A stretch of 64,000 nt of DNA from Allomyces macrogynus ATCC 38327 (taxonomy: Eukaryota; Blastocladiomycota; Blastocladiomycetes; Blastocladiales; Blastocladiaceae), in assembly GCA_000151295.1 (NCBI GenBank), contig GG745366.1, forward strand, positions 270,739 through 334,738. The letters run 5' to 3'. Positions within the stretch are counted from its first letter, which is position 1; each line of letters begins with the position of its first letter. The position numbers were made by a program, and so were the translations under genes. The notes below the pieces were generated by a model. It saw only the letters and a program-made list of their open reading frames with translations. It was not told the DNA's origin and did no database searches. Positions 8,950 to 31,092 of this stretch are shown piece after piece.

Positions 8950-9022
8950 GTCCGCGTGGTCTAGTCGGTTATGACGCTTGTCTCACACACAAGAGGTCTC
9001 CAGTTCGAATCTGAACGCGGAC
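8950..9022 (+). tRNA. tRNA-Val (anticodon CAC)
   Basis: The acceptor stem GTCCGCG pairs with CGCGGAC at the 3' end, with discriminator A at 9023. The anticodon stem CTTGT/ACAAG encloses the 7-nt loop CTCACAC, giving anticodon CAC. The T-loop is TTCGAAT, with one C-A mismatch in the T stem. No intron and no encoded CCA, as expected for a nuclear gene. It is followed by roughly 350 bp without a recognisable gene before the CNG channel. Confidence 0.93.
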
Positions 9023-9381
9023 ATTACATGTTTCGGCTTCCACGTAGTTGAGCTTCGCACCTTTTTGAGTCCACATGGGATTCTGTGCTCAGTTTTTGCC
9101 ACGCAAGCGGTCATGGAACCTGATGGGATGGAGCAGTGCAGCATCGCGCTGCATGCGGTCAAAATTGAATGTTTTGTGAGAACTTCTCCATTTCTTGTCA
9201 AAGTCTAATGATGGATTTCACGCCAAGGAGTGTTTGAAATGGGGAGTGTAAGCAAGCCTCTTTGCGCAGGTCCAAGAAAGAACCACAATGCTGAACACAC
9301 CTCCCCAGCTTCGCGTCACTGCTAAAATGAAGTATGTATCAAGAAGTGCGTACACTCCCACCCCACCACCTCACTAAAGTC

Positions 9382-12300
9382 CTAGACCCCGAGCCGATCC
9401 CCGCCACCGGCCCCACCACGAGCCTCTCCACCCCCTGTCCCACCAGTCCCACGCATCATATGCATCAGCGACACGGTCGGCCGCGCAAAGAACCCGGCCG
9501 CGAGCATCATCGCCGACCGCCGTTCCGGTAAATGCAGCGACATTTGCGAATGGTGCCGCGACGGCACACCCTCCTCGTCGCTCCCAGTCCCATCACTCTC
9601 GCCATCCGCGTCCGGATCGGTCGCGGCAATCACCGGCACCGGCACCGGTCCCACCGGTGCCGCGGACGCGGGCGACACGGCCGCGACCACGGGCGCGACG
9701 ACCGCCGCGTGCGCCTGCGGCGGATGCGCCGGCGCTGCCTCCGCGTCGTGCGTCGCGTGCGAGCTGCCCGTCCCCAAACTCGCGCGCGACCGAAGCGACG
9801 CCAAGATCCCGGACCCGCGCGCCGTCGATTTCCGGCGCGAGGACTTCGATGTGGACCGCATGAGCATGACCGATTTCCGGCGCGCCTGGAGGGCTTCTTC
9901 CCGCGCGCGTTCGGCGGCCTCTTGCTTGCGCCGCTCGTCGGCCTCGCGGCGTTCCTGCACGATCCGTTCGAAATGCGCGGCCATGTCCGGGTGGTCCTTG
10001 AGAATCGCGTTGAAGTCGTCCTTGCGCAACACGCACAGCTGCGTGTCGCCGACGGTGCGCGCGGTGGCGGTACGCCGCGCGTCTTGCAGTAGGGCGACTT
10101 CCCCGAAAAAGGACCCGGATTGGAGCGTGACGATGACCTTGGATTCGTCGGCGGTCAGGATTTCGACAGAGCCGGAGCGGATGAAGAAGAGCTCGGTGCT
10201 AGGTGGTAGGTGTACGAGGTGAGCGAGGGGTCGTGACAACGACGACGTGGTGGGCATGGCAATGTACCCAAGGTCGCCCACCTTGCACACGTAAAACTTG
10301 CTGCGCACGTTGATCATGGTCACCCGTTCGGCCAGCGCCATCTTGAACCGCTCGTCCGTGTCCTTGAAGAGCGGCACCTTGTTGATGAGCCCGAAATAGA
10401 GGTGCACGCACACGTCGCGCCGCAGCGTCTTGGGCAGAGAGTTGAAGAGCTCTTCCACGTCGAGACCGGCCTTGTGCACCCACTGGAACGCGAAGACGGA
10501 GCGTCAAATGGAGTGGAGGAAGAGGGCATGGGTGCACGAATGGACGCACTTCGAGCTCTTCCTGGTCGATGATGCGTTTCTGCAGCTCAGCCGGAAAGTG
10601 GTTCTCGACCATGTACCGGCACAGAAAGTCCTTCTTATACTTGCGGTGCTTTTCTATAACGCGTCGAAAGTCAAGTGTTAGCGTGCCGCGCCGCTGATCC
10701 AGGGCCACTTAGAGGCGAGAGCAACGTGCCCGCGCGACTGTAGACCGAGTTGGCGTCAAACAGCTTGACGATCGCGGCCAAGTTTCCAAACACCGACCCG
10801 AACACGATCGCGCTCAGCAGCATCTCGTACGTCTACCCTCCCACGCACACCGTCATTTCCCTGTATCGCCGCCTTGCCGCGCACCCACGACCCAGCCCCT
10901 CGGCGTACCTGGTAGAGCACCTCCTCTGTGACCTCCAATTCACGCATCAAGAAAAAACAGCGAGCGCTGCGAAAAATGGAAATTCCGTGCTTGCCGGTAG
11001 ACGAACGACGTTGGCACCGTATGCGTGTGCTTGTCGACCAGCATGTGTGCAATAAACCGGTCCTCGTCGACCAGGTGCGAGTCGAGCGCCCAGAACACGC
11101 ACGAGTTGAGCCACGCCATAGCGATCGAAAGCAAGAGATTCTTGATAAGTCGTCCGACGGCGTGCGGGATCCGTGGGAAACGAAAGTCGAACATCCATAT
11201 GACCGAGTCGGCGATTTGGATCAGCCGCACCGCGCGGAGCGCAGAGTAGATGGCGAGGAACGCCGGGATATCGCTATGGTGCAGGTAAGAAGCCGAGCGG
11301 GACGAGTGGGCGGGAAGGAAACGGAGCCGTACGCGTGATGGTACGAGTGCCGTAGCTCTGCGTGCGCTAATTCTTCGTGCGTCGCGACCGCCGGGTCGAG
11401 CAAGTGCTCGTGCAGCACGTATTGTGGGTTATGGCACTCGAGCGGCTGTTTCGTGCTGAGCGCGTAAAAGAGGACTGCCCAGTCGAATGGGATGCACGAG
11501 AACAGTTGTGCGACCTTGATCGGCTGGCTCAGGAACAGGTGCCGTTTGGCGACGCGCTCCGTGACCAGCTGGCCAAAGGCATCGTACCGCGGACGCACGA
11601 CGTCGAGCAGGACCGAGATGAGCATGATCACGTCAAGCGCGCAGAAATGATAGAAGTAGGGATAGCCGTAGTCGCAGACAAACGCCATTTCTGTTCGACA
11701 ATGAGAATCGTGCGTGAGCCCGAGGTTGGACATGGTGACGCATCACGGAGAGAAGAATCGACGCACGCAAAGGGACTATGACGACGGGGACCGACGTTAG
11801 CGAGATCGTTCTTGTGCATCACGTCGGGGACCAGGACCCACATACCGCAAATCAAGTAATAGAGGTCGAGCGTGCGCTTCATGTTATCCCACATCCGCCA
11901 CACGCGCGCGTCTGGCAGGACCATGGCGTCGTTGACCATCGCGACCACATTTTGCACCACTGTCTCGTCAAACGGCCGCCACACGCGCTGGTAGACGGCG
12001 CGCGCCATGGCTGCAAAGCACCCGATCCGCGGCTCCAACGAGCTCCCGTCACCACCGTCACCACGTCTTTCCGGATCCATATCGTCGGCCCCACCAGGTG
12101 TACCCGGCCCGATCAGCCGCGCGAGATCGTTGGTCGTCGGCGACCCGGACACTGGCATGGGCGATTCTGGCGGGTTGTTGGGCGCGAGTTGCGACGGTTC
12201 CGCGGGTTGAATCTCGTGCAGCGACGACCGCGATGCCTGGACCGGTGCCGGGGACTGGGATGGCGAAGGTGCCACGGCCGTGGCCGATCCTTGAAGCAGA

Positions 12301-13337
12301 GTGGACGAGACAAGCGTGGCGAGGTGAGTCGCGTCGAGTGCCGAAGCACCGCCGAGAAACGTGCGCTGCGCGCGCGGTGGCGGCGTGCCGGCTACCGACG
12401 TGGCACTGGCCGCATGCTGGTCGGCGAGCGCCGATGTTGATGGCGCAGTCGGAGCGTTTGGTGCGGGCGGTACACCAGCATTGGCTAGGCCCGGTAATGA
12501 CGGGTAAAATTGGTCAGTTCGGGGAATCGCTGCCACGGGCACTGGCGCGGGCGCGGGCGCGGGCGGCGCACTGATCGGTCCCGCGGTCGCGAGGCTGAGG
12601 TCGGGCGTCGACGCCGTGGCCGTGCCACGCGGCGACGACGGTCGTGATAGCGCCGTCGACGGAAGTGGCGGGGACGGGGTCGCGGCCCGTGACCCGCCAG
12701 ACGAGTCGAGCGCAGCGCGCCGCGGGAGTGTCTGTTCCATGTGGATCAAGATCTCTGGCAGGACGGGATCTGGCGCGGGCGCGGGGACCGGTGCCGGTGG
12801 CGGGACAGGAACCATGGCTAGGAGCGTGGCCGATTTGGAGAAGCGGCTTGGTGGGGATCGCTCGCCGGGCAGCGGCGGCGACATTGGTCGCGCCAATTCA
12901 GCGAGCACTTCGCCCGGTGCGCTTCTCGTCGACGATGGCGCGCGGGGGTATGCGGGCGAGCCCGAGGAGGCGGCAGCGAGGAGCGACGGCGCCTTGGTCG
13001 ACGGCAGCGACACGTCCTCGTCGGTCTCTTCGACCTGCTCGAGCCCGAACGCCGAAGACGAGACGAGTCGCAGGGACGACGACGAGTGGCCCCCGTTTCC
13101 AATCGATTTCGGCACAAGTCTTGACGGCTGCGGCGCGTCGCGTGTGGCCATAGAGGCCGCGTCGGCCGCTGCAGCGCCCGAGATCGGGTCGCCATTGAGC
13201 GACAGGTCTCCGCGCGCGTCGACGCCCACGGCGCCGTCGCCGAGGGCGGCGGCATGGTCGCTTGCGGCAGCAGCAGGCAGCGGTGGAGCGGCAGGGCCGG
13301 TGCCGTGCAACGGCGGTGACGGGTTGGGACTGGCCAT
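9382..13337 (-). CDS. Cyclic-nucleotide-gated ion channel (CNG), BeCNG1-like
   Basis: Eight exons are proposed: 13337 to about 11792, 11690-11345, 11273 to about 11010, about 10966-10909, 10832-10739, 10653-10550, 10482-10268 and 10198-9382, roughly 1,147 aa. An N-terminal tail of about 450 residues is Pro/Ala/Ser rich. Then come S1 (DLYYLICGMWVLVP), S2 (YHFCALDVIMLISVLL), a weakly charged S4 (LRAVRLIQIADSV), S5 (IKNLLLSIAMAWLNSCVFWA) and S6 (MLLSAIVFGSVFGNLAAIV). A C-linker (KHRKYKKDFLCRYM) and a cyclic-nucleotide-binding domain follow; its phosphate cassette FGEVALLQDARRTATAR carries the Arg and the Thr linked to cGMP preference. The Ala/Pro-rich tail after the CNBD is probably disordered. 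No canonical selectivity filter is visible between S5 and S6. It is divergent from the RING gene. Exon 1/2 and 3/4 junctions are uncertain. Confidence 0.88.
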
Positions 13338-13944
13338 GGTCGCGTAGAAGCGGCGAGGGCTGCGTCTCCGGCCGAGCGCAAGCGAAGGGCAGGCAGGAGT
13401 CGGGTGTGAAGCTGCGCGGCGAGGACGGGGCCGGGCGCGGAAGATCGAGTGCGTGCGTGCGCTGGCCGTGGGCGGTGCCTGGCGGCGTGCGCGCAATGGG
13501 CCGAGGGCGCGGAGCGTCGGTCGTCGGCGGGGACACTGTTGGCAATCACGGCTCGTTCGAAATTGCGAGGCGTGCGGCGCTTTGCCGCGCGCGGGGCGCT
13601 TTGCAGCAAGTCGCGATGCGCGCCCTTGTTTGTCGCGCGCGATGCAGACGTTGGCCGGCCAAGCGCGCCGGCTGAGATCGCTGCAAACGATGGCGGCCGC
13701 AATACGATTTCTCGCAGGCGACGGCAGCGGCGTGGGAGACAGACACTTTGGCGTGGCTGGCACCATGCCTCCATGTCACCGTTACGGCATCGCCACGTCA
13801 CTGCTGCGCCGTTTTAACTGCAGCATCGCCGAGTCCGCCGAGAACTGCTCTCCTCAGCACCAAGGCGCGCCGCCCGCGACCGCAACTTGTTTCGTTCCTG
13901 ACCCGCACCGCCGACCTCCGACCCGAGCAATCCACCAACCAACC

Positions 13945-14845
13945 ATGGCGAGCTACTTTGGTCCGCACCCGCCCGTGCAACACGCCACGACGCGCCTGGC
14001 ATCGCCCGCTTGCCTTTCCACCCGGAGCTTACGCACCTGACAGACGACCACAACCTCGACGAACGCGCGCACACCGGCGCTCCCCGCCGCGCGGGCGGCA
14101 CGGCGCACGCCGACCTCCTGGCCGGATTTCTCTCGACCGAACGTACCAACTCCGATGCCGCTGCAGCCCCGACCGCCGAACTCCCGACCGAGGGAGCGCT
14201 CGGCGCGGCCGTGGCCATGTTTGACCGGTTGCGGCTCTCGGCCGACTCGCCAACGCACGCGGCATGGCTCGCGACGCTGCTCGAGAATTTGATGGCAAGC
14301 GCCAACGCGTAAGGATGCTCGTCCACCATTTGGTGTTGGTTGTTTGGTATTTGCTGACGCGTCGTCGTCGTCACGAGGTAGTCCGTCAGGTCCGCCGCCC
14401 GCGAGCAAGGCGTTTATTGCCGCGTTACCACGGCCAAAGTCGCTGGCCCCCGGTACGCCATCATTCATGGCACGACCCGCGCGTGTATTATGCTGACGCA
14501 TGCATTCTAGACGCGACGTGCCCGATCTGCACCGAACCACTCGACGAAAAGGACTCGGACGCGCGCTCGCTGCCGTGCGGCCACACGTTCGATCGCGTAC
14601 GGTTTATATCCACCCCCGGCATCACGACCCCTGCCGAGACCTCACCCCTCCACTCCCTCCGTTTTGGACAGGAATGCGTCGTGCCCTGGCTCGAGCTACG
14701 CAACACATGCCCAATGTGCCGGCTCGAACTGCCCACCGACGCGCCACCCAAACCACCCACGCCCGATCCGGCGCAATTTGTGACCACACGGTATCACGTC
14801 GACAGCGACGACGGCGAAGACGACGTCTACGGCATGTACGGATGA
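13945..14845 (+). CDS. RING-type E3 ubiquitin ligase, RNF115/126-like
   Basis: Five exons (13945-13960, 14044-14308, 14382-14452, 14511-14596, 14672-14845) give 203 aa with consistent phases. The join GPPPASKAFIAALP then DATCPICTEPL reproduces the GPPPA...LP linker that precedes the RING in RNF115/126-type ligases. The RING reads CPIC...LPCGHTFDREC...TCPMC. The fifth metal-ligand position, His in RING-H2, is Asp (CGHTFD). Ligases of this type are soluble and mark proteins for proteasomal or endosomal sorting. The first exon is only 16 nt; a different first exon is possible. The CNG gene is divergent, with about 600 bp between the starts. The Asp is discussed separately. Confidence 0.82.
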
Positions 14846-16804
14846 AACAGGGAGGCGCCATGTGCAGCAGTACGAGATAAATGCATGAAATGAAATATCA
14901 TCGCTGTTTGGCTGCGGCACCCTTTGTCAGAGTTGCCACTCGATCGGCACGTCCCCGCCCCCGCGACGCACCGCGACGCGTCCGTTCAAACGCACATGCC
15001 TCTCCACCGGTTTTTGACCGAACACGCGCCGGCACAACCAAACGATCGAGACTGTGTGCGTCCCGCGGCCGCACGGCTGGCACCGTGTGCGCCTACCTCC
15101 TGGTTGATTGGACGCAACGCACATGTTCGCCCCTGGAGGTATGGCCATCAGTCGCTGGGCGGTTGGACCCCCGTCGTGGTGCCTGTTGTTCCGCGCCGCC
15201 CCTCAGCATTGCGTTGCTTGCGGCGGCGGTAGCGGCGCTCCTGGCCAGAGAAACGAGCACATAAATAAATTGCGCGGGCGAGGGATGTGCAGGATGCGCC
15301 CGAGAATATCGACCCCGCCGTCGGCTGTCGACCTTCATGACCTTGCCCCGCTCAACCGGCTGTGGCCGCAGCCATGCGAAGTGAGGGACTAGTGTGAGTT
15401 GGGCAAGCGAGCCGGCTGTTATGTTTCGACATTGGTCATTTGCTTCTCGCGTCCTCCTTATTGCCAAGGGACTGACTGAGGAAACATATCACAGGCAAGA
15501 CAGGCCTCATGGTGAGGACCAAACACCACTTCATGATATCGCGAATCGGCGGGGCGAGCGCTGTGGTGCGCGCCGGGCAGATTGCGGCGCTGGTGCGTGT
15601 GCACACAAGACAGACATCGTGATTGCAAACCTGATCCCTCACCATGGCTCAAACGTCTCTGCCATACATCTCCACCTGATGTTGAACCATCACACTGCCC
15701 ACACCTGACCAACCATGACCCCATCCCTGATGAGCATGCTCAGTCATGCTCCCCACCACGCGCTGCAGGAACGCCGCACGCCGGCCTCTTGTTGGTCAAT
15801 ATTCCCACAATTGACGGCCACAAGAACGCGGTACTTCCAGCCACTGACCCACAGGCTCAGTATGGCCATGGTGCTGTTAAGCCCACAACACCTGCAGCCA
15901 AATCGCTACGCCCTCCACCCCATGGCGTGGTTCTCTGTGTTGGTTGATTGAGAATTAAATAGAGAAAGATATTGCGAACGTTGTCCACCAGTTGATGTTG
16001 GCTGGTGGGTAGGCGGCGTGGACACAATGGTGTGGAGCCAACATCCCAGTGACAGTGTCTAGTGCAGCCCACCCAATCCCAATCCTGATCCCATCAAGGA
16101 GGTCCATTTGGCAGATCATTTTACTTGCACCTCCATCACTGGTCGCGGCCACGGCCATATGCAAGGAGGCGATCCAGACTCGCATGGTTGGGCAGGGATC
16201 GCTGATTCTCGTGTGCCACTCTTGTAACTTGTGCATCTCACATCTTGCATCTTCAGTCTTCCATTTTGCCGGACGTGGAGGAAGACTTAATTCAAGGGCC
16301 GAAAGTGAACGAACCACGGCCATGGGTTCTCGATCCAGCAGGGCAGGCCGCGTTCGCTGCAGCCACACAGTGGATGAATTGCAGAGCGCAAGAAACAGGC
16401 GTCATGACTGCATTTCTGATCCCACATCACAACAACTTGCTGGGCTACCCTCATGGGTTGCCCGCACTGCACAAGAGCGATGAAAACAACACAAAGAGCA
16501 CGCGGTAGTTATTGAGCAATATATCGTAAATGGGGCGCGCCAGCATCGCGCAAGAGCTTTTTGGTGGTCTATGGCACTGGGAAGGAAGGAAGGACATGAC
16601 AGGAATGGGAACAGCAACAGCAAAAAGAGCGACCAACAACAAAAAAAAAAGAGACTTAAGGACAAGGCAAAATCTGCAACGACGAAATCGACAAACAGTC
16701 TCTAGCTCCATGTGCACGGTCGCGGCCGATCTCTAAAAAAAAAAAAATAACACCACAACAAAAAAAAAGGACATGCACGCCCACATTCTCTCTCTCTCCG
16801 CCAC
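14846..16804. other. Gene-poor, lower-GC interval
   Basis: Roughly 2 kb without a supported gene. Base composition is clearly less GC-rich than flanking genes, codon bias disappears, and there are A-runs near 16640-16770. Short frames such as 15582-15947 and 16245-16508 have no recognisable domain. It may be a decayed mobile-element or pseudogene remnant, but no terminal repeats or transposase motifs are visible. Confidence 0.5.
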
Positions 16805-19800
16805 CTACTCCCTTCCAACGGCGCCTGCTGCTGCCGCCCCACTGCCACCCACGCGTGCGGGCGTCGCGAGGTGCTTGACGGGCACCGGCGGGACCGGAAC
16901 CCCCACTAGCGGCGTTACACACGCTCCATTCACCTCCGGTGGCATCGGCATCGGCATCGGCAGGGGCTCGCCCAACTGCCACGCGGACCCGCGGCGCGAC
17001 GGCGCGCTCGACACGTCCGACACGCGCCGCGAGTACTCGGTCGACTCGGACATGAACGACGCGGCCGACGGCGCGCGCGTCGTGCGCATCATGACCGGCG
17101 GGGCCGGGGGCGGGACGATCGGCAGTGGCGGCGGCGATGCCGACAAAACGGCCGCGCACGGCGCGCCGGTCGGTGTCGCGGGTACGGGAATCGACACGCT
17201 CGTTGGGCCGGGGGTCGTCGCGCCGTCCTCCTCATCCTCCTCCTCCTCCTCGACGTCCGTCACGTCCGTCTCCTCCGCGGCGGCGGCGGCCGCCTGAGCC
17301 TCGGCGTCGGCCAAACCGGCCCAGTAATCGCGCGTCACCGCAATCGTTTCGAGGTACCGCGCCATCCTTGGCACGCCGGCACCCATGGTCCGGAACAGCG
17401 GCGCGACCATGTACTCGGCGAACGTGAGTCCCATGCGCGCGGCCTGTGGGCGTGTCCGGTCCGAGAATCCCGACACGGTCCACCCCTTACTGCGCTCGAG
17501 ATCCCCCTGCGCCCACATTTCCGCCTGGATGCAGTCCGACCACCCGCGCGCGAGGTGCAGCGGGCGCACGACGTTCGACACGTCGGCGCACTTGATGATC
17601 ATCTCGAGCGTGCGCGCGCGGTGCTCGGCGTCATTCCAATCGACCGGCTGGATCTCATTGTACTTGGCCATCACATCCACATGCTTCGCGAGATCCGTGG
17701 CCAAAATGCACCGAATGATGAGCTTGCGCACTTCGGCGTGCTCGGCGCGCGTGAGGCTCGCCAGCAGATCAAACTTGCGCAGCAGGACAAACGCCTCGTG
17801 CGCATGGTGGTTTTCGAGCGGGGACTGGTCGTTGTAGAGCAATGCGAGCGCCGACGCCGCCTGGATGTGGTAGCTGTTGGTCTTGCCGTCGTGGTGCAGG
17901 TCGTGGCACACGCACGCGAGCAAAAAGGCCGCTTGCTCGAGCGGCGTGAAGAGCAGAGCCGCGCGGGTCGGCCGTGCCGCGGCCGCTTGTTGCTGGCGTT
18001 GTTGCGCGGCGAGGCGTGACATCGGCGGCATGCGCAGCCGCGGGACACGGCGCGCGGTCGCCTCTGCCGAAATAACGGGCTCGTCGGGTTCGGCCGCGCC
18101 AGCGGGGCGGCGGCGTCGGCGGCAGCGGTGGCAGCGATGACCCCGTGGCAGACACGAGTTTCGGGTACCCGAGGGACGTTGGGGTGGGCGGGACCGGCAA
18201 TGCCCCCGTCGCGACCGTCATGTCCTCGTCGCACTCGACGGCCTGCGCGGCGGCCTCGCCGTCGTCCTTGACGCAGCACGTGCGCAAAAACAGGTACGCG
18301 GCCTGCGTGACATCAAACGCGTGCCGGAAATTATGGTACGGGTTATCGGCGTACCCCTTCTCCACCGCCACGAGGAATTCAAGAAACCGCGCCGGCTCCA
18401 CTTTCAACACCTCCAGCAACCCGAGGTCGGCAAACATGTCGACCAAGAACACGAGCAGTTCATGGTGCGCGTAGGACCACGGGTCGAAGTTCCACGAATT
18501 GAGCAATGGTAAATGCGTCGCGTCCGGCACGACCGGCGGCAACGTCGGCGTCGCCGCATGCATCGGCGCCTGCGCCTCGGCCGCGGCCGCGAGCAGCCAC
18601 TGCTCATCCATGGTCCCAGGAGGCGCCGCGTCGAGCGGCACGTCCGAAGCGGCCGAGGAAACGGTCGAATCGACCGAGTCGCGCCGGTGCCGACGGGCGG
18701 CCGCGCGCGCGGCGGCGTGCGCTGCGCCTGTGGATCCGCGACGCGCACGGCGTGCGCTGAGCACGGGCGAGGCGGACGGTGCGGGCGCTGGTGACCCGGG
18801 CGCGCCGTAGACGGCCGCGTGGTACTCGGGCGTATCGCGGAGCACTTCCACGGCGAGCCAACTCCGCGCCTGCGCGTCCAGATCGGACGACCGGATCGCG
18901 CGCTCGAGAGCTGGCCGGTACAAGTTCGACGCCGTGAGTGTCGTCAAGACCGAAGCGAGCTGCGCCTTGGCGTTGGGCGGCAAGGACGCCGCGTCGTTCC
19001 CGACCAACAAGTTGGTCACGGTCTTGGTGATGAGCGAGAGCGGTGTCTCGACAGCCGCGGCCACCTGGTCCTGCAACGACTCGATGGTGGTCTCCAACGA
19101 CTCGCGACGGGTGCGTTCCTCGTCGAGCAATTGCCAGACGGTCTTTTCCTTGCGTTTACGCCAGACGGCGCGCCAGACGCCGCGGACAGCGTCGGGTTTC
19201 ACGGGCTTGACCATGTAGTCGTCGGCGCCCGCGCGCAAGCACGCGTAGGCGAGTTCCATTTCGTCGGCGGTGGCGAGCACTATTTGGCGGAAGGGAAGTG
19301 AGTCAGGTTAGGCGGGCCAGGTAATACCAGAAAGGCAAACAAACGCACTGATGACGGGCAAGTGCCGCAGACTCGGTTCCGACCGCACGGCCTTGAGCAG
19401 GTCGGTCCCGCTCGTCGACGCCATATCAGCGACGAGCAGCGCGTACTCGCGCTCCCCGCCTGCTGAGGCAAGAGGATGCGGAAGCAACCCGGCATCGTGC
19501 GATGCCCGGCGCGAACCCGGCGTGCGCGCCTGGGCGGGCGACGGCGACCGGGAGACGCGCGAGTCAACTGCAAGTGCGCGGGCCGCGGTCGTCGACCCCG
19601 CACGACGGCGCGGGACGGTTGCAAATGTCGAATTGGCTGCTGCCGCAGCCGCGGCAGCACGCTTGAGCGCAACCAGTGCCGCGGCCGCGTCGGGCACGGT
19701 TTCGGCCGGGTACCCGTTGGCCGCGAGCATCGCGGCGACGCGGCGCGCGTGCGCCGCATCCGCGTCGACGACAAGCACGCGCAGGTCGGTCGGGTTGATG

Positions 19801-20282
19801 GATAACCGACGCGCAAAGACGCGGGACGGGTCGGCAGCGAGGGCCGCCAAGTCGGCCGATGCGAGCGACGTGGATGACGAGGACGAGGTGGTTGACAGCG
19901 ACGCGAGAGCCGCTGAATTGCGCCGTGCCGCGCGCGCAATGGCCGCGGCCGGGGGCGGCGGTGCCAAGCTCGGCGAAAAGGATGCGCGCCGAGGCAGCAT
20001 CGCAGGTGGAGAGGTTGGCGACATCGGATTCGGCGAGGTCGGCGGGCTCGTGCGGCCGCCGGTGAAGGGCAGCGCCGGCAAGCACGAGAGGGCCAGCGCA
20101 GCGAGTGACGACGACCGGCGCGCCGACGGTGACGAGTGGTGCGCGTGGGTCGACAGCGCCGAGGCGGCCGAGTCGGCGGATGTCGAGGAGGTGCTGCGCG
20201 ACGAGGTGCGCGACAGCGGTTGCGGCGGCGGGGCGACGTAGTCGTGGAGCGAGTCGTTGGAGCGTCGGCGGTGCGAGGCCAT
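16805..20282 (-). CDS. Receiver-domain/cyclic-nucleotide phosphodiesterase fusion (RegA-like architecture)
   Basis: Three exons (20282-19349, 19279 to about 18156, about 18079-16805), about 1,110 aa. After about 160 Ser/Ala-rich residues comes a receiver domain: acidic pocket LRVLVVDAD, phospho-acceptor Asp in YALLVADMAS, conserved Thr in VIMLATADEM and Lys in DDYMVKPVKP. A coiled linker (LDEERTRRESLETTIESLQD) leads to a class I phosphodiesterase domain with NPYHNFRHAFDV, the metal site CVCHDLHHDGKTN and IIKCADVSNVVRP. The tail is acidic and Pro-rich. The first intron (19280-19348) is well supported; the second (18080-18155) is the only phase-correct pair of usual length, but its splice sites are weak. 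The REC-PDE order is that of Dictyostelium RegA, where phosphorelay controls cAMP hydrolysis. Whether this enzyme prefers cAMP or cGMP cannot be read here. Confidence 0.88.
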
Positions 20283-21154
20283 CTTGATGCACGGGTACGT
20301 GGTGCAGGTGGTCGGTGACTGGTGGGCCTGGTTGGTTGTGCGGCTGGGTGGGGCCGCCAACAGAGGTCGAATCCGCCGCCTCAAGGCGCAGCTGTCTGTC
20401 GCTTCAGCAGCCGGCGCGCGAGCGATCGCCGCGGTCTATCTAGTCTATGGCGGGCGGGTCGCGCGCGCGACGGGCGGCAGCGAGCAGTGCAGTGAGTCGG
20501 GGCGGTGCAGGCAGGCGGGCGGGTTGGGCGCGGGGATCGCGACGACGACGACGGTGGCCGACCGCTGCGGCCAGATTGACGACGATGGGTTGCATGCCAG
20601 CATGAGCGGAACTAGGTGGTCCACTCCAGGTTTCGGTTTCGGTTCGGTGTCGATTTCGGTGGCGGTTTCGGTTACGCCTTGTTTCGCCCAGTTTCGCCTC
20701 GATCTGCGTGGCCCAGCGCACGTGCGTTCCCCACATCGGCGCAACATGCATGACAGGCCCCTGCATGCCGCCGGCAACGGCAACAGGCTGGGCATTGCCC
20801 CTCTGCTGCGGCCGCCACCTCGGCCGTCGAACTCCGCCACGCCGCCGTTGCCGCCGCCTCCGGCAAGGAGAACAACGTTGCGCGATTCGTGCGATGCAGG
20901 CCGTCATGTCGACCGAGGACTATCTGCACAACAGGCCCGACCGCCGCCACGGCAGGAACCGACCATGGCCGCGCTAAACAAGGCAGCGCAACTGCGCGTG
21001 CGCAGCTGAACGACGACAACGACGACAACGACGACTCCACTTCCCACGCTCGACCGGGCGATCCTTCCTCCCAAACGACTACCAACTCCAGCTCAACCGA
21101 CACGCGCGGATTGCCCCTCCCGTCCCCGCGCTTGACTTTCTCCACCACCGCAAG
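20283..21154. promoter_or_regulatory. Divergent promoter region, PDE (-) / GH26-like (+)
   Basis: About 870 bp separate the two starts. The interval contains a purine/pyrimidine stretch with repeated ggttTCGG-type words around 20630-20690, but no clear TATA box. No coding frame here has domain support. Shared regulation is possible from position only. Confidence 0.4.
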
Positions 21155-22615
21155 ATGGCCCACGACGCCGCCATTGACGGCCCGCGCAAGCCGCGGTCGC
21201 GCGCCTGCAAACTCGCCGTGGCCGCTTTGGCCATTCTCATCGTCGCCGGCATCACCATCGGCGCGCTTTTTGCCGCAGGCGTCTTGAAAACCTCGTCGGC
21301 CACGTCGAGCGCCGCCGACTCGAGTTCCGGCAACGGGTCGAATGGTCCGCGCGGCGACAACAGCAACGGGTCCGGCACGACGGCGTCGCCCTCGGCCACG
21401 CCGACCGATGGCGCCAACAAGACGGCGAGCACCGGCGGCATGCTCGGCAAACTCGTCACGCCCAACGACAAGGGCATGCTGCTCGGCGCGCATATCTGGG
21501 GTGACGGCATTCAGTGGAGCGCAAAGGACCCGAGTAACTGGAACAAGTTGGCGGGTTCGTTTGATTTTACCCGAGCCGTGTTCGCGCGCTCGAAAATCGT
21601 CATGGCTGATCAATCCACTTCCCAGACTTCAACGGCGCCGGGTTCGGCGCGTTCGTCTCGGTCGACAACGCGACGGGCATCAAGGACCCCGAGTCGGTCA
21701 TTGGCTACGCCAAGCAAATCAAGGACGCCAAGGGGTTCATGCTCTTTACGCTCGAGCCCATGGACGGCCTGCACGTCATGACCGACTCGGTCATTGACAA
21801 GGTCGTGGCCGTGCTCGTTCAGATCAACGACATGGGCGTGCCCGTCATGCTGCGATTCGCGCACGAAATGAACGGCGCCTGGTACGCGTGGGGCCAAAAA
21901 CCCGACCTCTACAAGGCGACCTGGATCAAGCTCACCAAGGCCGTGCGCGCCAAGGCCAAGCTGACGTCGACCGTCTGGGCGGCCAATGTCGCCGCGGGGT
22001 ACCCGTGGACCGACGTTTATTCGCCCGCCAAGGGGTCGCCCGATTTCGTCGCCATGGATACGAATAAGGACGGCGCTGTCGATGCCAAGGACGACCCGTT
22101 TGCGCCGTACTACCCGGGCAACGACGTACGTTTCCGAGCTGTAGGGACTGGATTCGCGACCGTGCGACTCACCTTCTCCACCCTCTTTCCAGTGGGTCGA
22201 CTGGATCGGCTTCTCGCTTTTCCACTTTGGCCCCTACCCGTTCGGCAAGAACGTGGTCCCCGACTCGGGCGCCGTTGCCGGCGTTCTCGAGCCGGCGACC
22301 TGGTCGATCACGCAGTTCGCGTCGTCGATGAACAAGCCCTTTGGCGTGTTCGAGGCCGGCGCCGTCTACTACCCGTCGTCGGGCGCAAACGACGCGGTAC
22401 TCGACGCGAGTATCAAGACGACGTGGCTCTCGCAAATCGCGGCGATCAGCAAAGGGTCGGCCAGCCACGCGCGCATTTCGCTGCTTATGTGGTTTGAGAT
22501 CGCCAAGATTGAGAATTCCGGCCAGGCACGCGACTTTGCGCTGTTCAAAAGCAACGAGGTCGCCGATAAGATTAAGCCGATGCTCAAGGCCGGCGCGTTT
22601 GTCAACAACGCCTAG
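21155..22615 (+). CDS. GH26-like glycoside hydrolase with N-terminal membrane anchor
   Basis: Three exons (21155-21554, 21626-22125, 22193-22615) encode 440 aa. Residues about 20-42 form a hydrophobic segment (LAVAALAILIVAGITIGALF) preceded by basic residues, a signal anchor or type II membrane topology. A Ser/Asn/Gly/Thr-rich stalk follows. The catalytic region shows MLRFAHEMNGAWYAWG, matching the GH26 acid/base region, and KPFGVFEAGA, a plausible nucleophile site. GH26 enzymes are mostly beta-mannanases or related endo-glucanases, so a role in cell-wall or environmental mannan/glucan processing is inferred. Inside the domain sits DTNKDGAVDAKD (22057-22092), which has the spacing of a dockerin/EF-hand calcium loop. 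Divergent from the PDE gene. Confidence 0.78.
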
Positions 22616-22908
22616 ATGACCTGTCGCTGTCGGGCGATGGTGTGCTCGCGTTTTTTCGATATCCTCTTTTTGCTGACCTTGTCCCCATCACCTCCTCTGC
22701 GCTTCTTTGTTTTTTTTTTTTTTGCTCTCGGCGTGTCCATGTGCCGCTCTCTTCTTGCTGTTCCACTCTGCTGTAGATGTGAAATTACAGCGTTTCCCTT
22801 CTCGCGCTTCGCTCCGCGGCACTCCGTCGTCGCTGCCGCACGCCCACAGCGTCCCCATTCGTCCCTACACTCCCTACTCTTCATCCCTCTGCGCGCGCGC
22901 GGCCCGAC

Positions 22909-23917
22909 TTAAGCCGTCTGCGTCTCGACCCCCGCCATCCCCGACGGGACCACATTCTCCGGCATCAGTTTCGCGGCCACCTCAGCAAACCGGCGCCCCT
23001 GGATTTCAGCAATCTCGCCTTCCTTGTCGCTCACCTTCCGCGACCCGTCCGGCCCGGCGACTGCCGACGCGCCCCACGGCGACCCGCCGAGCACTTCGCC
23101 CACCTGGTTGATGTGCGGCGACGCGTAACCCAGCGGGACATAGACCATCCCCAAATGGCTAAACCACCCGTCGCGGGTCAGTTCCCGCGGATCGCGGAGC
23201 AAGGGCGGGGGGCGGAGGGTGTACGTACGCAAAGTACGGCACCATCGTCATGATCGTCGTCTCCTGGCCGCCGTGCTGCGAGTTGGTGCAGGTGAAGACC
23301 CCCGCGGGCTTGCTCATCATTCCGCCAGACACCCAAAGACGGCCCGTAGCATCGAGGAATGACTTAATTTGGGCAGGCGCAGTGCCGAACCGCGTCGGGA
23401 CGCCGAAGAGCACGCCGTCGGACGCGGCGAGGTGGTCGACGGTGGCTTCGGGCACGGGGGGGACCGTGGGCGCGTGCATTTTCTGGAGGACTAGAGGGCG
23501 AAAGGAGGAGTGGGGGAGGTGGAAGGCGCGTCGGTCGGTCAGTCAGCGAGTGGGCACGGAGAGGAGCGCGACACGAGAGGCGTGGGCCGTGCGGATTACG
23601 ATGACGAGGCCGACGGCGCGGGCGGATCACGACTTGTGCGGGCGCGGATCGCGACAAGAACGGCGCGCGCGACTCCCGCACACTCGACGGCGCGCGGACC
23701 ACGCCAAGGGGAACGAACCCTCGGCCGGCAACGTCTCTGGGACGCGGTAAATCGTTGCGTTCGCGCGACCCGACGCGTCGACGCCCTTCTTCACGTGCGT
23801 CGCGAGCTCGTAGACGTGGTGGTAGAGCGAGTAGATGATGATGGCAATGTTGGCCTTGCGGTTGCCCGTGGCGGCAGCGGCAGCGGCGTTGGCGGCGGTC
23901 GTGGCGGCGGCGGACAT
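22909..23917 (-). CDS. WrbA/Pst2-type NAD(P)H:quinone oxidoreductase (flavodoxin-like)
   Basis: Three exons (23917-23719, 23490-23229, 23158-22909) give 236 aa. The first intron is 228 nt, long for this genome; the second is 70 nt and joins VPYFA to HLGMVYVPLGY. The N-terminus carries the FMN phosphate-binding start (IAIIIYSLYHHVYELA). Then come DGVLFGVPTRFGTAPAQIKS and GVFTCTNSQHGGQETTI, the family's signature segments, and a C-terminal GEVLGGSPWGASAVAG. Such enzymes use FMN to reduce quinones by two electrons and protect against oxidative stress; in yeast they sit at the plasma membrane periphery. The region between the exons contains no convincing additional exon. Same strand as the M20 peptidase gene upstream of it. 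Confidence 0.9.
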
Positions 23918-24306
23918 GGTGACGGTGCGTGCGTGGTGGTGGTGCGCGGATCGCGTCGATGGTGGTGCGGGGTCGTCGCGGTGGGAAGGAGGAGAAGCGA
24001 GCGCGGTGCGTGCGCGAGAAATGGACGACGTGGAGTGTGGTTAAGGTCGTGGGCCGCGCCGTGCCATGCACGCAGCTTGAGCGCGGCGTTCCCCAGGCCG
24101 GCCGATCCGATCGCGCGCCGCGCGCCGGCCGCCAGCATCACCATGGCCATCACGCTCCACGGCAAACCGCGGCCGATGCACCCAAAAAACGGCTTGTTAT
24201 GATGATACAAACACGATGAAACCACACGACGCCGTGCGCCGCTCGCGCCGTACTCGTTCACCACCTTCCTCTGCGCGTCCGCACAAGACTTTGCCGCCGC
24301 AGCACG

Positions 24307-26259
24307 TTACGCGCCCTTCTCCACCGGTGCCGGCGCGCTCGTCGCCAGTTCCTTCGGCATCTCCCCAACCGCACGCATCAACTCCATCATCCCACTCACG
24401 CCGCGCGCCACATTCTCCGCCTGCAGCCGCTCATTCACGCCGTGGAACCCGGCAATCTGCTCGTGCGTCCACATCAAGAAAAACGACGTGCGGTAAATCC
24501 GGCGCGCGAGGTGCACAAAGTGCCGCGTGTCGGTATTGCCCATAAGCATCGTTGGCGCAACGACCGCGTCGCGGAACGCCGGTTCCTGCGCGGTGCGGTG
24601 CGTGCGGTACATGCCGCGCAGGACGCGAGAGAGGGCGGAAAAGTAGGGGTCGTTCGGGGACATGGTCGAGACGGGCGACGGGTCAGCGGCGCGGTTGCCC
24701 CACGGTTCGATGACGAGTTGCGGCGAGACGTGGGCGGCGATCGCGCGCAGGTCGGCGGTCACCGAATCGGCGGTCTCGCCGGCGGCGATGCGCACGTCCA
24801 TGAAGGCCGAGGCTACGTGGGGGGTGGACAGCGCGTCAGGTGGGAGATCGCCGGTTCGTATGAAGAGCAGTGACATGAAAGCGTACCCGCGTCGGGAATC
24901 ACGTTGATCTTCGGGCTGCCGTCGAGCATCGTGAACGCGACCGTCGTCTGCATCGTCGCCGCGGTTCTAACCCATTGAAAAAAAGTAGAGTCAGCGCACC
25001 GCCAAACCAGAGAGAGAACCATCGCGCGACACGTACTTGGTGTTCGACTGCAACACACGCGCCACCACCTTGCGGAACAGCCACAAGTTGCTCATCACAA
25101 ACCGGTGGACGGGCGGAAAGTAGGGCACCAAGTACCGCGACATCCACCCAACGCCCGCATCCAAATTCGTCCGTCGTTCGCGCGCCTCAATCGCGGCAAT
25201 CGCCTTGCCCAACACCACCACTGGGTCGTCGGGAGACGGCATCGACGCATGCCCGGCCCCATCGGCTTTACGGTGCGCCGTCATTTTCAGCGTGAGCGAC
25301 CCCTTTTCGGCAACCCCGACGAGCGCGATCCGGTACGGGTCGAGCCCGCGAATGATCGTCTGCACGCACATGGTCCCTTCGTCGACGACCATGGCCAGCG
25401 ACTCGACGCCACGGGCTTGCAGACGCGCCGCGATCTGGGCCGATCCGGCGAATCCGCCGATTTCCTCGTCGTGCCCGCTCGCGATGTAAATCGTGCGCGA
25501 CGGCCAGTACCCGGCCATGAGCAGCCGCTCGGCAGCCTCGAGCAAGATGATCAGGTTGCCCTTGTCGTCCATGCTCCCACGGCCCCAGACGAATCCTTCC
25601 TCGTCGATATGGCCGTCAAACGGCGGGTGCTTCCACTTGGACTCGGTGCCGGCGGGCACGGGCACCACGTCCGAGTGCGCCATGAGCAGCGTCGCGCCGT
25701 GCACCGGGTCGCGCCAGTTGTCGGAATCGACGTGCGCGCCGCCGTCCTCGGACCCGCGCCAGGTGATCAGCAGCGAGTAGGTGTTGACGCGCTCGATGTG
25801 CAGCCGCGAATGGATCAACGGGTAGGTCGCGCGCAGGTACTCGAGCAGACCCAGAATCGCCGCGTGCGACTCGGCGATCCGCGCCTCGAGGTGCGGGTCC
25901 AGCTCGCCGTGCACGTGGTGGTGGTGGGGCTCGTGCTCTTCGTGGTCGTGGTCGTCGTGGTGGTGCGCGCACTTGCGCCCGGAACTGTTGTCGTCGTCCC
26001 AGGAAACCGTCTTGAACCGCACCATCGTCGCGAGCCGCTCGCCGATCAGTTGCACATCGTCGGGCCGCGTGTGCACGGCATCGCGCGGATCGAGCGGGAC
26101 CGCTTGCGCCGAGATCGTGCGGTTTGTCTGAACGACGCCTGCGGTCAGAGCCGCGACGGCGGTCGCGGCCGCAGCAAGCGCGACGGAACCCGAGTGGGCG
26201 GCGGCGGTTGCGAGCGCGCGCGCCGCGACAGTGCGCGTCGTGGTGGAGGTGGCCGACAT
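24307..26259 (-). CDS. M20-family peptidase, Cps1/PM20D1-like, with a histidine-rich insert
   Basis: Three exons (26259-25037, 24966-24887, 24812-24307), 602 aa. A hydrophobic Ala-rich segment near residues 20-45 suggests a membrane anchor or signal, as in yeast Cps1, which is delivered to the vacuole. The metal and catalytic motifs are in order: LLMAHSDVVPVP (His-Asp), WGRGSMDDKGN (bridging Asp), ASGHDEEIGG (Glu-Glu) and MVVDEGT, with a C-terminal GNTDTRHF histidine. Introns of 70 and 74 nt restore PKINVIPDA-ASAFMDVRIA. Near residue 95 is an insert with about 11 His among Asp/Glu residues (KCAHHHDDHDHEEHEPHHHH) ahead of the catalytic domain. Expected activity is hydrolysis of short peptides or N-acyl amino acids; exact substrate is inference. 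Confidence 0.9.
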
Positions 26260-28275
26260 GAGGACTGGCGATGCGAGTGCGGGGAGTTGCGTGCAGAGCG
26301 GGCTGGTCGGCCGTATTTATTGCCGCTGGCACGACCGCGACCTCCCCTAGTACTGCGCCGGCGGGGTTCGCGTGCAACCGCGGCAGCGGCCGTGGTCGCG
26401 TGTGGGCGGGGCGATGGATCCTGTTCCTTGGCAGGTGGGCCGTGGTGGCGCGTCTGCGGGCGACGGCGGCGGCGTCGTGCGGCGTCGGTAGGGCGAAGCA
26501 GGGGACCCGTCACCCAGGGCGACCGGTGCAAACGCGCGCGTCGGTTCCTTCTATCGAAGACGAGAGAGGGACCAGGGCAGGGCGTGGGGGAGCGAACGGG
26601 CACGGCAGCGTCAACCTTCAGTGGGTCGTATCGTTCTCAGTCGTCCTCAACGCGTGCAACGTGCCACGCGCCGGCGCTGGGGCCAGTGTCGCGCGGCGCT
26701 GGCGGAGTGCTTGCAGCAACCATTTTCGTTCATGACCGCGCTCTGCCCATCGGCTCGCGGCAGATGCACAACGACCGACCACCGACCACCGGCACCGCGG
26801 CGGCACTGCCGCTGGCCGCCCTCGGCACGACGTCGACCTCCTTCACAAATCGCAATCCACTTGTCGTAAGCGCACGCCACTGCCCGTCGGCCGTGGAAAC
26901 CCCCATGTCGAGCTGTCCTGGCCCCGCGCCGTAGGCGATTCCTGAGCGCACGCGCCACCTCCACCGCCGACAGCCGTTGCTGCCGTCTACTCTGCGCGAA
27001 ATCACGGTCTTCCACTGTTGATTGCGTCGACCTGCCGCGGGTCCCCTCGAGCGACACCGATCACGCTCGGCATCAGCCCCTAAAATCTCGATGCGGTGGA
27101 CTCGCTGCGCACCCTGGCCGCGCGAGCGTGGATGAAGAAACGGGCTGCGCAGAAAAGACGCCGACATGGGTCACGATGAAACAGTCCGTTGGCGTTTTCT
27201 GCCTCCATTCTCGACTTTGAGCATGGCTGGCGCGTTCCGATCTCGGCCGCCAGGCCAAGAAGAAGAGCCCGGCAAGTGTGCCGACCAAGTGCTCATGCCG
27301 GCGGTGCAACTGGAGGACCTCAGGTGCCGCTCGCATATGACGATGGCCGCAGTTCCTCGACGACCGCGGCCAACGCGCGCGACTACGACCGGTTAGACGA
27401 CGCCGAGTTCCAGTTCCACGGCACCAACGACGAGGCCAGGGTGTATGTCGATCAAGACCAAGTTTGCGCGGCGCGCGACGATACCGCCGCGGCCGTCGAC
27501 GACGACGTGACGCCCCGGCCGCACGACGACCTCGGCGGCGAACGCCCCACGACCACCGATACGCGCCCAGACCACGACGGCGAGACACTGGCATTTGCGC
27601 GGGTGCGGGGGTAGCGTAACATGATATTTTGCGGAGCGCTGGGATTTTGGACCGATGTGGAGTGAGGGATGGCGCTGTCGATGGCGCGCGACTATGCGGC
27701 GGCGCCAGTGGGGACGATGGACAACCGCCACGGAGAGATCGCGGCGGGAGGGGCCGCGCGAGCAAGGCACGGCGCGGACGACGGGTCGGCCGGGCAGCGA
27801 TGTGTGGAGAAGTGAACTGCCGTGTTGACCACCACCATCATCAAGCTGCCACTTGCAAAGAGCAACTCGCACGTCGGTCGACCCAATTTTCTTCGCCAAC
27901 TATTGTGTATTTCGGGCGCGCAAAATCAACAGCATGTGCACCTCGACCTAGAACTGCGGCCTTATTTTTCAAGAAACTTCGCGATGCCGCGACAGGAAGT
28001 GGTTTGAGGTCGTTTACCATAAAGGCAATGCAACACCGCTCATGCCCAAGTCCTGCCGCCCTTCACTTCAGGCCACCCTGATCTAACTTGATCCCGCGCT
28101 TCCACCCTCCAGCCAACGCACGCAAAACACGGTGAAGAGCAACGAAAATGGAATATAACCCCCATTCGTGTTGGTATTCGAAGTGCATTATGCCAGCGCA
28201 TCGCATCGCCTCTTCCATCCAGTCAACCACCGTCTGCCCCTCAGGCAAGCGCTCCTCCTACTCCGAGACGAACTT
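26260..28275. other. Intergenic interval, at most one weak hypothetical frame
   Basis: Two kilobases between the M20 start and the 3' end of the guanylate cyclase. A long forward frame over 25105-26934 is mostly the antisense of the M20 gene. Apart from the weak frame at 27189-27614 I see no gene, RNA or repeat. Confidence 0.45.
27189..27614 (+). CDS. Hypothetical acidic protein (weak)
   Basis: 141 codons. The second half is Asp/Thr rich with an ordinary composition (DYDRLDDAEFQFHGTNDEAR) that looks more coding than the surroundings. It could be the last exon of a gene, entered after the cctcag at about 27320. No domain is recognisable, the start is not supported, and the reverse strand is also open. 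Treat as a candidate only. Confidence 0.22.
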   Translation: MAFSASILDFEHGWRVPISAARPRRRARQVCRPSAHAGGATGGPQVPLAYDDGRSSSTTAANARDYDRLDDAEFQFHGTNDEARVYVDQDQVCAARDDTAAAVDDDVTPRPHDDLGGERPTTTDTRPDHDGETLAFARVRG

Positions 28276-31092
28276 CTACTCGTGGTGCTGCTGCTCGTTG
28301 CGCTCCGGCTCAGGCGTGATCGTGCCCATCGTGTTATTGTCATCGATCTCCGACTCGTTGCCCTCCTGCGCGACGCCGCCGTCGACTGGCGGCTGCTCGA
28401 GGACCCACACGAGCATCGTGCCCTTGCCCTTGACCGCGATCGACCCGCGCTCGACAAACACAAAGTCCTGCTCGGCGGCGACCACTTTGTGGAACTCGTC
28501 GGAGACCTGGATGCGACCTTTGTCGTTGGTCGAGCACACTGAACGCAGGGACACGATCAGGTGAGTCATCATCACCAGCGCGCGGGGGAGAAGAGAACAA
28601 AAAAAGCAAAACGTACTTCGCGACGCGACATTCACCACGTCCCCAAACAAGCAGTACCGCGGCGCCTTGGACCCCACCAACCCGGCGAGGCACGGCCCGC
28701 AGTTGAGCCCGATGCGCAGCGGCAGTCCGTCCTTCCAGGTGCCCGGCAGCTTGAGGTCCGACACGTCGATCTCGGCGACGGCGTCGATCGCATCCATTGA
28801 GAACTCGAGGATCGCGCGTGCAAACTCGATACGTTGGTCGACGGGCGTCGAGTCGCGGGTGTCGAGCACGCCGCACGCAACCATGAACGTGTCCTGCACC
28901 GTCTCGACCTTGTAGAGCGTCGGGTAGTCGACAAGAATCGCATCGAAGCACTTGTAGAGCCGGTCGAGCAGCTTGACGAGCTGGTGGCCCGTGCCGGCCG
29001 CGCTCGCGAGTTCCTTGAATCCGCACAGGTCCATGAAGCCGACGCACGCCTGGAGGGAGGGAGAGCGTAAGTACAAGCTCTTCGACACGATCCAAGAAAC
29101 GGAGTGCGCGAAACGTACAAAGTCGAACGACACGGGCTCGGGCATGATGCCCTGCTTGAGCTGGTCGCAAATGAACTTGGGCAGCATGGCCGAGAGCAAG
29201 TCGTTGGACGAGTCCGTGTCGAGCTTCTTCTCGACCTGCCGCTTCTGCGATTCGATGATATCGTTGCGCGACATGGTCGCAAGCAGCTCGTTCATTTCCA
29301 GCTGATGGTCGGCGCGGATCTGTGCGACTTCCTCCTCCTGCTCCTTGATCAGGTCCGAGAACTTGCGCTTTTGCTCCTGTTGGTTGCAAAGAGAGACGAA
29401 CGGTCAGTTCCAAGCTCCGCCGCGACGACAAAGACGAACCCAAAACGTGCCTTCTGCAACATGCGGAACTGATCGCGCTGCTGGTTCTTGAGACTGTCAA
29501 GGTTTTCCTTCTGCTGCCGCTGCAGCGTCCGCACGCGGTCGCGTCCCTTCTCCAGCTGCTCCATCAACTCAAGTTCCTGCGCGTCATCGAGGTTTTTCGA
29601 CTTGGCCACGCGCGACTCGCCCTTCTCGCCCTTTTCGGCCTTCTCCTCGCCCTCGCCGCCGGCATGTTCCTCCGAGTCGGACGCCGCGTCCGAGCTCTCG
29701 GTCCCGGACATGGACGACGAGTCCTCCGAGTCCTCGTCGCCGATGCCCGACGACTTTTGCAGCAGCTCGTCCTGCGCCATGAACACGCGCGTGCGCAGCT
29801 TGGCCGAGTGCCGCTGCTGCCGCTCGAGAAACGACGCTTGCCGGCGCTGCTGCCGCTCAAACGAGCTGCGCGTCGCCTTTTGCCGCTCGCGCAAGTGCGT
29901 CGCCTTGATGCGCGCCTGCGCGTTGTCCATTTCGTCTTGCGCGGCCTGCTGCTGCGAGAGGAACTGCGCCTCGAGCGCGAGTTCCTTTTCCTTTTGCTCG
30001 GTCGCCACGTGCTCGAGCGCCGCCTGGTCCTCGATCTCGCGCGCGAGCGTCTCTGGAGAACGCGGGCGGGAAAGAAGGTCAGTTCGTGGTACCCGGTGCG
30101 GAGATCGACGGCCGTGAGTTCGAGAGCGTACCGGTCATGTGCTTGATCTTGATCAGCTGCAGCTCACGCAGCTGTTCCGTCTCCTTCTGCTGCTTCATGC
30201 GCAGCTGGTGCGCGACGACCTCGTTCTCCTTGAGCTTGCGGCGGCGGTCAATCTCGTCGAGCCCGCGCATCTCGAGCGCCTGAATCAGCTTGATGTTCTT
30301 GGCGACGCGCAGCTGCGACATGCGAAGCTCCTCGCTATGGACCGGCGTCGCGTCAGCATCCCATCAAATCCGTGCCGACGCGGGGAAGGAATGCGTACCG
30401 CTCGCGCTTCTGCCGCGCCTCGACGTTCTTGATGAGCAGCTGGAAGGCCTCGCGCTTCTGGCGCATCTTCTGCCGGAAGGCCACTTCGCGCTCGCGCGCC
30501 TCCTCTTGCTGCACGAGCCGCACCTTGAGCGTGAGCGCACGGTCGGCGAGCTTGGCCAGGCGTACTTTCATGAACTCGGCCGCGAGCAGGTCCGTCGCCT
30601 AGTTTCGAGTTACGCGTCAGGTCGGCGATCACCACGTACCCCGAGTCGGTGATGCCAAACGTACCAGTTCGCGCTGCCGCATCTCGCTGAGCCGGCGTTC
30701 CGTGAGTTGCGCCTAGCCATGCCCCGACCGTGATCAATCTTCGCATCAACCTTATCCCCTTCGCGTCGATGCCGTACCTCATACAAGTTGCGCGCCTCCA
30801 TCAGCGCGGCCTCGCGCAAATTCGCCTCCTCCTGGTCAAAGTGCTGCAACTTGCGCTGCAACGCCGCCTTGTGCTCGATATCGTCGCGCACATTGCGCAG
30901 TGCCGCCGCCATCTTCTGGTCCTGCACGACCTTGAGCGCCGCCTGCGTCGCGCCCGGGTGCGTCAGGTTCGCGGCCGAGCCCGCGGCCGAGCCCGTGATC
31001 GATTTCGACCCCGAGGCCTCGCCGATCGACCGCGCGATCCGGGCGCCCGCGAGGCCGCCGTTCAGCGAGCCGCCGGAACCGGTCGAGGACAT
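28276..31092 (-). CDS. Class III guanylate cyclase with long N-terminal coiled coil
   Basis: Eight exons (31092-30778, 30712-30665, 30598-30399, 30334-30132, 30052-29451, 29376-29119, 29049-28617, 28538-28276) encode 773 aa with every phase consistent. Residues about 50-500 are Glu/Arg/Gln-rich coiled coil with an acidic Ser/Glu island (SEEHAGGEGEEKAEKGEKGE). A dimerisation helix (LLSAMLPKFICDQLKQG) leads into the catalytic domain. Both metal Asp residues are present (FMDLCGF and VQDTFM), as are the transition-state Asn/Arg (NVASR) and the guanine-specifying Glu (YKVET) and Cys (PRYCLFGD). It should form a soluble homodimer making cGMP from GTP. No rhodopsin, heme-NO or membrane domain is seen. 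Intron 5 (29377-29450) appears to be GC-AG. Divergent from the nitronate monooxygenase gene. Confidence 0.92.

Follow-up and report, generated by a model that had tools for sequence, protein, structure and literature searches.

Cyclic-nucleotide genes in the window

The window analysed here is the whole 64,000-base stretch G000:C37:270739-334738 of Allomyces macrogynus ATCC 38327, whose genome assembly comprises 54 Mb in 75 contigs. Inside positions 9382-31092 of the window lie three cyclic-nucleotide genes, all on the minus strand: a channel-like gene related to the CNG/HCN superfamily, a receiver-fused class I cyclic nucleotide phosphodiesterase (PDE) and a guanylate cyclase. An earlier reading, made from the sequence alone (the sequence-only reading), had placed such a trio within 22 kb, and a Pfam profile search bears this out with matches to cNMP_binding (63.5 bits), PDEase_I (209.6 bits) and Guanylate_cyc (132.3 bits). 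The exon models of all three genes were spliced by hand. Their main features are as follows.

9382..13337, minus strand: CNG/HCN-superfamily-like gene; seven proposed exons, 13337-11846, 11690-11333, 11273-10909, 10832-10730, 10653-10550, 10482-10268 and 10198-9382
9991..10200, minus strand: cNMP_binding domain, with GSFFGEVALL..ARRTATA (Pfam, 63.5 bits)
10909..10966, minus strand: pore-loop stretch without GYG or GYGD; its T6 tract, which reads T5 on contig C46, shifts the frame of the window copy by one base
16806..20282, minus strand: receiver-fused class I cyclic nucleotide PDE; proposed exons 20282-19349, 19279-18156 (end unsure) and 17992-16806 (start unsure)
19144..19784, minus strand: receiver domain of the PDE, limits approximate, interrupted by some 60 inserted residues; it retains the phospho-Asp and the Lys and lacks the second acidic residue and the Thr/Ser switch
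17345..18338, minus strand: PDEase_I catalytic domain, checked metal-ligand positions intact
17429..17431, minus strand: Gly codon in place of the invariant purine-binding Gln (Gln453 of PDE9A)
28276..31092, minus strand: coiled-coil guanylate cyclase; eight proposed exons, 773 residues, no rhodopsin
28395..29052, minus strand: Guanylate_cyc catalytic domain, with FMDLCGF, KVETVQD and PRYCLFGDVVNVASR; Pfam match 28618-29052 plus a C-terminal piece

Public Allomyces proteins match these models closely: identity is 98% between A. macrogynus AMAG_14645 and the window PDE (83% of the query covered), 98% between AMAG_14643 and the channel-like protein (55% covered) and 97% between A. arbusculus GGF31_005335 and the cyclase. 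The junction between exons 1 and 2 of the channel-like gene is uncertain, and AMAG_14643 deviates there by a few residues.

The channel-like protein, phosphodiesterase and cyclase

The first gene had been read as a CNG channel. Its cNMP domain and its kinship with the CNG/HCN superfamily, seen both by profile and by fold, uphold part of that description, but the channel domain and the pore motif do not. No Ion_trans match occurs anywhere on the window's contig, C37, and in three relatives of the protein Pfam gives the cNMP domain alone, with no Ion_trans match even at an E value of 0.1. The sense frames of 9382-13337 contain neither GYG nor GYGD, the sole GYG across the six frames being antisense. 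The motif is likewise lacking in all 12 Allomyces homologues, from three species, that cover the pore; a thirteenth, AMAG_14643, ends short of it. Pores without this filter (hereafter filterless) were also read directly from the DNA on contigs C46, C68 and C40, so that the family has been read at the pore at four loci of this genome; it includes five A. macrogynus proteins and probably more.

A profile built from Allomyces sequences alone matches the channel SthK at 7.8e-39 across S6, the C-linker and the cNMP domain, and matches HCN and CNG channels as well. An earlier profile searched against the PDB had contained two Ion_trans proteins, and the match over these three segments was kept when the search was rerun with Allomyces sequences only. 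The predicted fold also matches SthK, at 3.5e-22, together with HCN and CNG channels. We conclude that the CNG/HCN fold is firm for S6, the C-linker and the cNMP domain, and weaker for S1-S5. The cNMP_binding match supports the binding cassette that the sequence-only reading had called cGMP-type; the Arg-Thr pair behind that label, however, occurs in SthK too and is therefore not diagnostic of cGMP gating.

Two published systems offer comparisons. In Blastocladiella, cGMP signalling in phototaxis has been described with two parts, the rhodopsin-cyclase BeGC1 and the channel BeCNG1 with its GYGD filter (PMC4046227). BeCNG1 of B. emersonii resembles the window protein in its cNMP-binding domain, its place in the CNG/HCN superfamily and its origin in a zoosporic fungus, but it has the GYGD that the Allomyces channel-like family lacks. 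As judged from its sequence, the window gene is not BeCNG1-like, lacking GYGD. HCNL1, a proton channel of zebrafish sperm, shares with it an HCN-superfamily architecture that includes a cNMP-binding domain, and has a non-conducting pore, as the window protein probably does (PMC11700363). HCNL1 passes protons through its voltage sensor, whereas the S4 of the window protein has few basic residues by eye. The window protein would probably sense cyclic nucleotide through its cNMP domain, without passing K+ by the BeCNG1 mechanism, and may have a role as a sensor or as a subunit that does not conduct.

Among the 20 matches listed for this family none came from B. emersonii (scoring was confined to the 7,993 candidates with the most words in common). 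Elsewhere in the A. macrogynus genome, Ion_trans and cNMP matches adjoin, by position, at six loci; three were inspected, and GYGD was found on C64 and C38 and not seen on C45. The motif expression used here for GYGD and for the cyclase residues missed some loci owing to introns. The A. javanicus and A. arbusculus orthologues of the channel-like protein (P0138 and P0139) are publicly labelled 'Kinesin-like protein kif27', a label at odds with their domains.

The PDE, of about 1,081 residues with its second intron assumed, is fused to a receiver, as had been proposed. Its A. arbusculus orthologue (P0121) matches PDEase_I at 228.3 bits and Response_reg at 40.8 bits (cut-off 30.2), the latter match being partial (profile positions 51-106 of 111), and in the predicted structure of this orthologue strands and helices alternate as they do in a receiver, apart from an insertion. 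The phosphorelay input suggested for the enzyme holds in part: the window receiver has the phospho-Asp and the Lys, but its second acidic residue and its Thr/Ser switch are both Ala. Two of the six fungal matches that span the second acidic position retain it. Such a receiver would probably signal weakly, or without full phosphorylation.

RegA of Dictyostelium likewise joins a receiver to the catalytic domain of a class I phosphodiesterase. The window PDE shares this pairing and differs in its degenerate receiver and, with its fungal matches, in the Gly or Ala at the invariant Gln. The three metal-ligand positions tested are conserved in all 13 aligned PDE sequences. At the position of Gln453, ten fungal matches have Gly (seven, two of them from Allomyces) or Ala (three, all from Basidiobolus), and the other three aligned sequences, a Gloeochaete-labelled protein and two more, have Gln; the ten are similarity matches, not a clade defined by any tree. 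Ten of the 18 other PDE loci of the genome were inspected, and the motif, found in six, has Gln in every case. Human PDE9A, the closest solved relative by sequence and by fold, has the same metal-ligand motifs, with Gln453 where the window PDE has Gly. This glutamine is described as critical for substrate binding and as an unlikely determinant of the preference for cGMP or cAMP (PMC3069055). With its two-metal site intact, the window enzyme probably still cleaves cyclic nucleotide there, the purine being bound without the usual glutamine. A literature search found nothing joining Allomyces or Blastocladiomycota with a phosphodiesterase and a response regulator. A second 'receiver-like' match, at L039 on C64, proved to be linker and was rejected as a receiver.

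The cyclase is the least altered on the positions checked. Its eight exons, separated by introns of 64-79 bases, encode 773 residues with a long coiled coil. The sequence-only reading had given it intact E/C residues and no rhodopsin, and both points are sound: it keeps the E (KVETVQD), the C (PRYCLFGD), both metal Asp residues and the Asn/Arg pair, and C37 carries no Bac_rhodopsin match, the genome's two matches lying on C63 and C44, each adjoining a cyclase match. Since the checked catalytic residues are intact, this is probably an active guanylate cyclase, which would produce cGMP as a dimer. With the rhodopsin-guanylyl cyclases BeGC1 and CyclOp it shares the class III guanylate cyclase domain and the E/C residues; it differs in the long coiled coil that replaces the rhodopsin, and it groups with Blastocladiella coiled-coil cyclases. 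In the tree it clusters with the coiled-coil B. emersonii protein H9P43_001993 and a B. britannica protein (99/99 support), and further relatives come from Gaertneriomyces, Geranomyces and the EukProt entry Opistho-2. Twelve loci were scanned for the cyclase domain, which did not appear at C57b; the tree leaves out C57b and C11 and takes C62 as outgroup.

To the left of the window, on the plus strand at C37:252402-254872 (L030:1664-4134), lies a coiled-coil pseudocyclase that keeps the metal Asp and the E and has Cys replaced by Ala, Asn by Gly and Arg by Leu; its copy on C46 has like residue changes. It is a possible heterodimer partner of the window cyclase. A recent tandem duplication of these two C37 cyclases was considered and rejected, as they sit in different tree groups (7 of the 17 inner branches being open). 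More cyclase-like loci, L048 (C70), L049 (C75) and L050 (C68), also have altered Cys, Asn or Arg positions, and by these residues several cyclases of the Allomyces genome look like one-sided partners.

Linkage, clustering and readings of the neighbourhood

Synteny in relatives had been named beforehand as a test of the grouping, and the grouping does not pass it in B. emersonii. Within Allomyces, where orthologues are 90-97% identical, the three genes appear to be linked, and linkage was seen in this genus only. In B. emersonii the PDE homologue is on a contig of 2,021,495 bases and the two cyclase homologues are on contigs of 2,841,633 and 1,742,282 bases, that is, on three separate contigs; those of B. 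britannica (34,147, 39,933 and 11,105 bases) are too short to show linkage. Within A. macrogynus itself, C46 carries a second copy of the region, seen as 18 blastn pieces of 75-95% identity that are collinear up to window position 11,697 and resume at 31,323. Where the second-copy PDE and cyclase would lie, C46:154231-184692 reads N, so that C46 allows no inference of absence; among the matches listed, no other copy of window 11,650-31,400 is comparable in size and identity to the C46 flanks, the best pieces being about 500 bases at 69%.

The reading that we favour, and consider probable, is that diverged cyclic-nucleotide genes lie together here in a neighbourhood specific to the genus, and that they do not make up a conserved cGMP gene cluster. 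The three gene products may draw on a common cGMP pool. A shared pool is possible, however, for any users of a diffusible messenger, and proximity is therefore little evidence of one circuit.

Several observations weigh against this reading. In A. arbusculus the contig given for each of the three orthologues is 242,482 bases long, and the equal size indicates that they are probably on one contig. In B. emersonii, orthology of the PDE was taken from the best match only, and that protein has no receiver. The closest solved structure to the window PDE is the cGMP-specific PDE9A, which mildly favours cGMP as substrate. As for the channel-like protein, the S5 stretch scores -0.9 bits against SthK with the Allomyces-only profile, below threshold, and the structural model is weak, with a mean predicted local distance difference test (pLDDT) value of 44, a template modelling score (TM-score) to its target of about 0.4, and two Ion_trans proteins in its alignment. 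Homologues of BeCNG1 have been reported in A. macrogynus (PMC8371127, PMC9616733). Finally, the genes are closer together than uniform placement predicts. Merged loci number 17 for cyclases (five known from profile match alone), 19 for PDEs and 38 for cNMP-binding domains, 74 in total and all lower bounds; the P values that follow were calculated post hoc for uniformly placed loci and take no account of the dependence among duplicates. Five cyclic-nucleotide loci fall within about 49 kb (P 0.00015; for at least four, 0.0035), and five PDE-cNMP pairs lie within 30 kb where 0.8 are expected (P 0.0013), these pairs being partly dependent, in that those on C68 and C74 look like one pair copied and another rests on a weak match.

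That apparently copied pair consists of a PDE locus and a cNMP-binding locus separated by about 28 kb, at C68:1396199/1424163 and C74:1009163/1037070; its channel-like gene on C68 is filterless. Left of the window, on the minus strand at C37:262548-264408 (L031), a weak cNMP-binding domain scores 28.8 bits (cut-off 27.5), and its surroundings are inverted in C46.

The sequence-only reading had gone further, to a parallel, non-photoreceptor cGMP circuit. Taken as a true module, the coiled-coil cyclase would make cGMP, the receiver-PDE would remove it under phosphorelay control and the channel-like protein would read it out in the zoospore, their closeness having been selected. The intact non-rhodopsin cyclase and the denser-than-uniform locus, with its five genes in 49 kb, fit such a circuit, as do the probable single contig of A. 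arbusculus, the nearness of the PDE to PDE9A and the fact that near full-length cyclase homologues belong to zoosporic fungi and the EukProt entry Opistho-2. Against it stand a putative effector without its filter, a PDE without its glutamine, an incomplete receiver and the separate contigs of the B. emersonii PDE and cyclases. In eukaryotes, moreover, gene position is seldom important for diffusible messengers. We consider a selected module unlikely.

Pure chance would need only three unrelated genes falling together in a genome that has 17 or more cyclase loci, 19 or more for PDEs and 38 or more for cNMP-binding domains. Any three of the 74 loci would lie within 22 kb with a probability of 0.029, and a PDE lies within 30 kb at only 1 of the 17 cyclase loci, both of which agree with coincidence. 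The probability of at least one cyclase, PDE and cNMP triple within 22 kb is lower, at 0.007, and that of the five-gene group lower again, each of these groupings having been chosen after the fact; we hold chance alone to be distinctly improbable. The proximity of the three window genes is real, modestly unusual and so far seen in Allomyces only.

The integrity of the channel-like gene bears on whether there is an effector here at all. Relative to the T5 of the C46 copy, the T6 of the window copy shifts the frame by one base in the pore, ahead of S6 and the cNMP domain, which falls out of frame. AMAG_14643 terminates at this point, whereas the A. javanicus and A. arbusculus proteins read through it. 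The C46 copy carries an extra base of its own in a C run, and because of this second one-base difference assembly errors in both copies would fit; an assembly error is the likeliest explanation of the T6 frameshift. Over 438 codons the C37 and C46 copies have 108.5 synonymous and 17.5 nonsynonymous differences, a ratio of nonsynonymous to synonymous rates (dN/dS) of 0.036, and the channel-like protein has therefore been under purifying selection. That the frameshift and the short AMAG_14643 mark a decaying pseudogene, with the effector dead here, is very improbable in the face of this ratio, the uninterrupted proteins of the two relatives and the C-run difference in C46.

Two findings surprise us most, a filterless family of CNG/HCN fold that is kept by selection and fungal PDEs that lack the invariant glutamine. 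A bolder reading, which we regard as doubtful, joins them: Allomyces would keep the filterless family under selection as membrane proteins that sense cyclic nucleotides and have no K+ pore, with one member beside an intact cyclase, the degenerate paralogue of that cyclase (a possible one-site heterodimer) and a glutamine-less receiver-PDE, as a local non-photoreceptor cGMP module of altered parts. The filterless family, the glutamine-less PDEs and a non-rhodopsin cyclase that has a degenerate paralogue linked to it would each broaden the presumed requirements of their families.

Intervening genes

The remaining features on and beside the interval are the following.

14225..14845, plus strand: RING-type zinc finger gene (Pfam), intervening
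21610..22615, plus strand: GH26-like gene, intervening, start unsure
24994..26316, minus strand: M20 peptidase gene (Pfam), intervening, may extend to about 24307
8949-9024: tRNA-Val, outside 9382-31092

Two details of the sequence-only reading have to be corrected. It had counted one tRNA among the intervening genes, but the sole tRNA found in the window by ARAGORN and Rfam is the tRNA-Val outside the interval. In place of the five intervening genes proposed, three have a Pfam match (RING, GH26 and M20), and the gaps between locus tags in relatives (AMAG_14643 to 14645; GGF31_005331 to 005335) suggest four.

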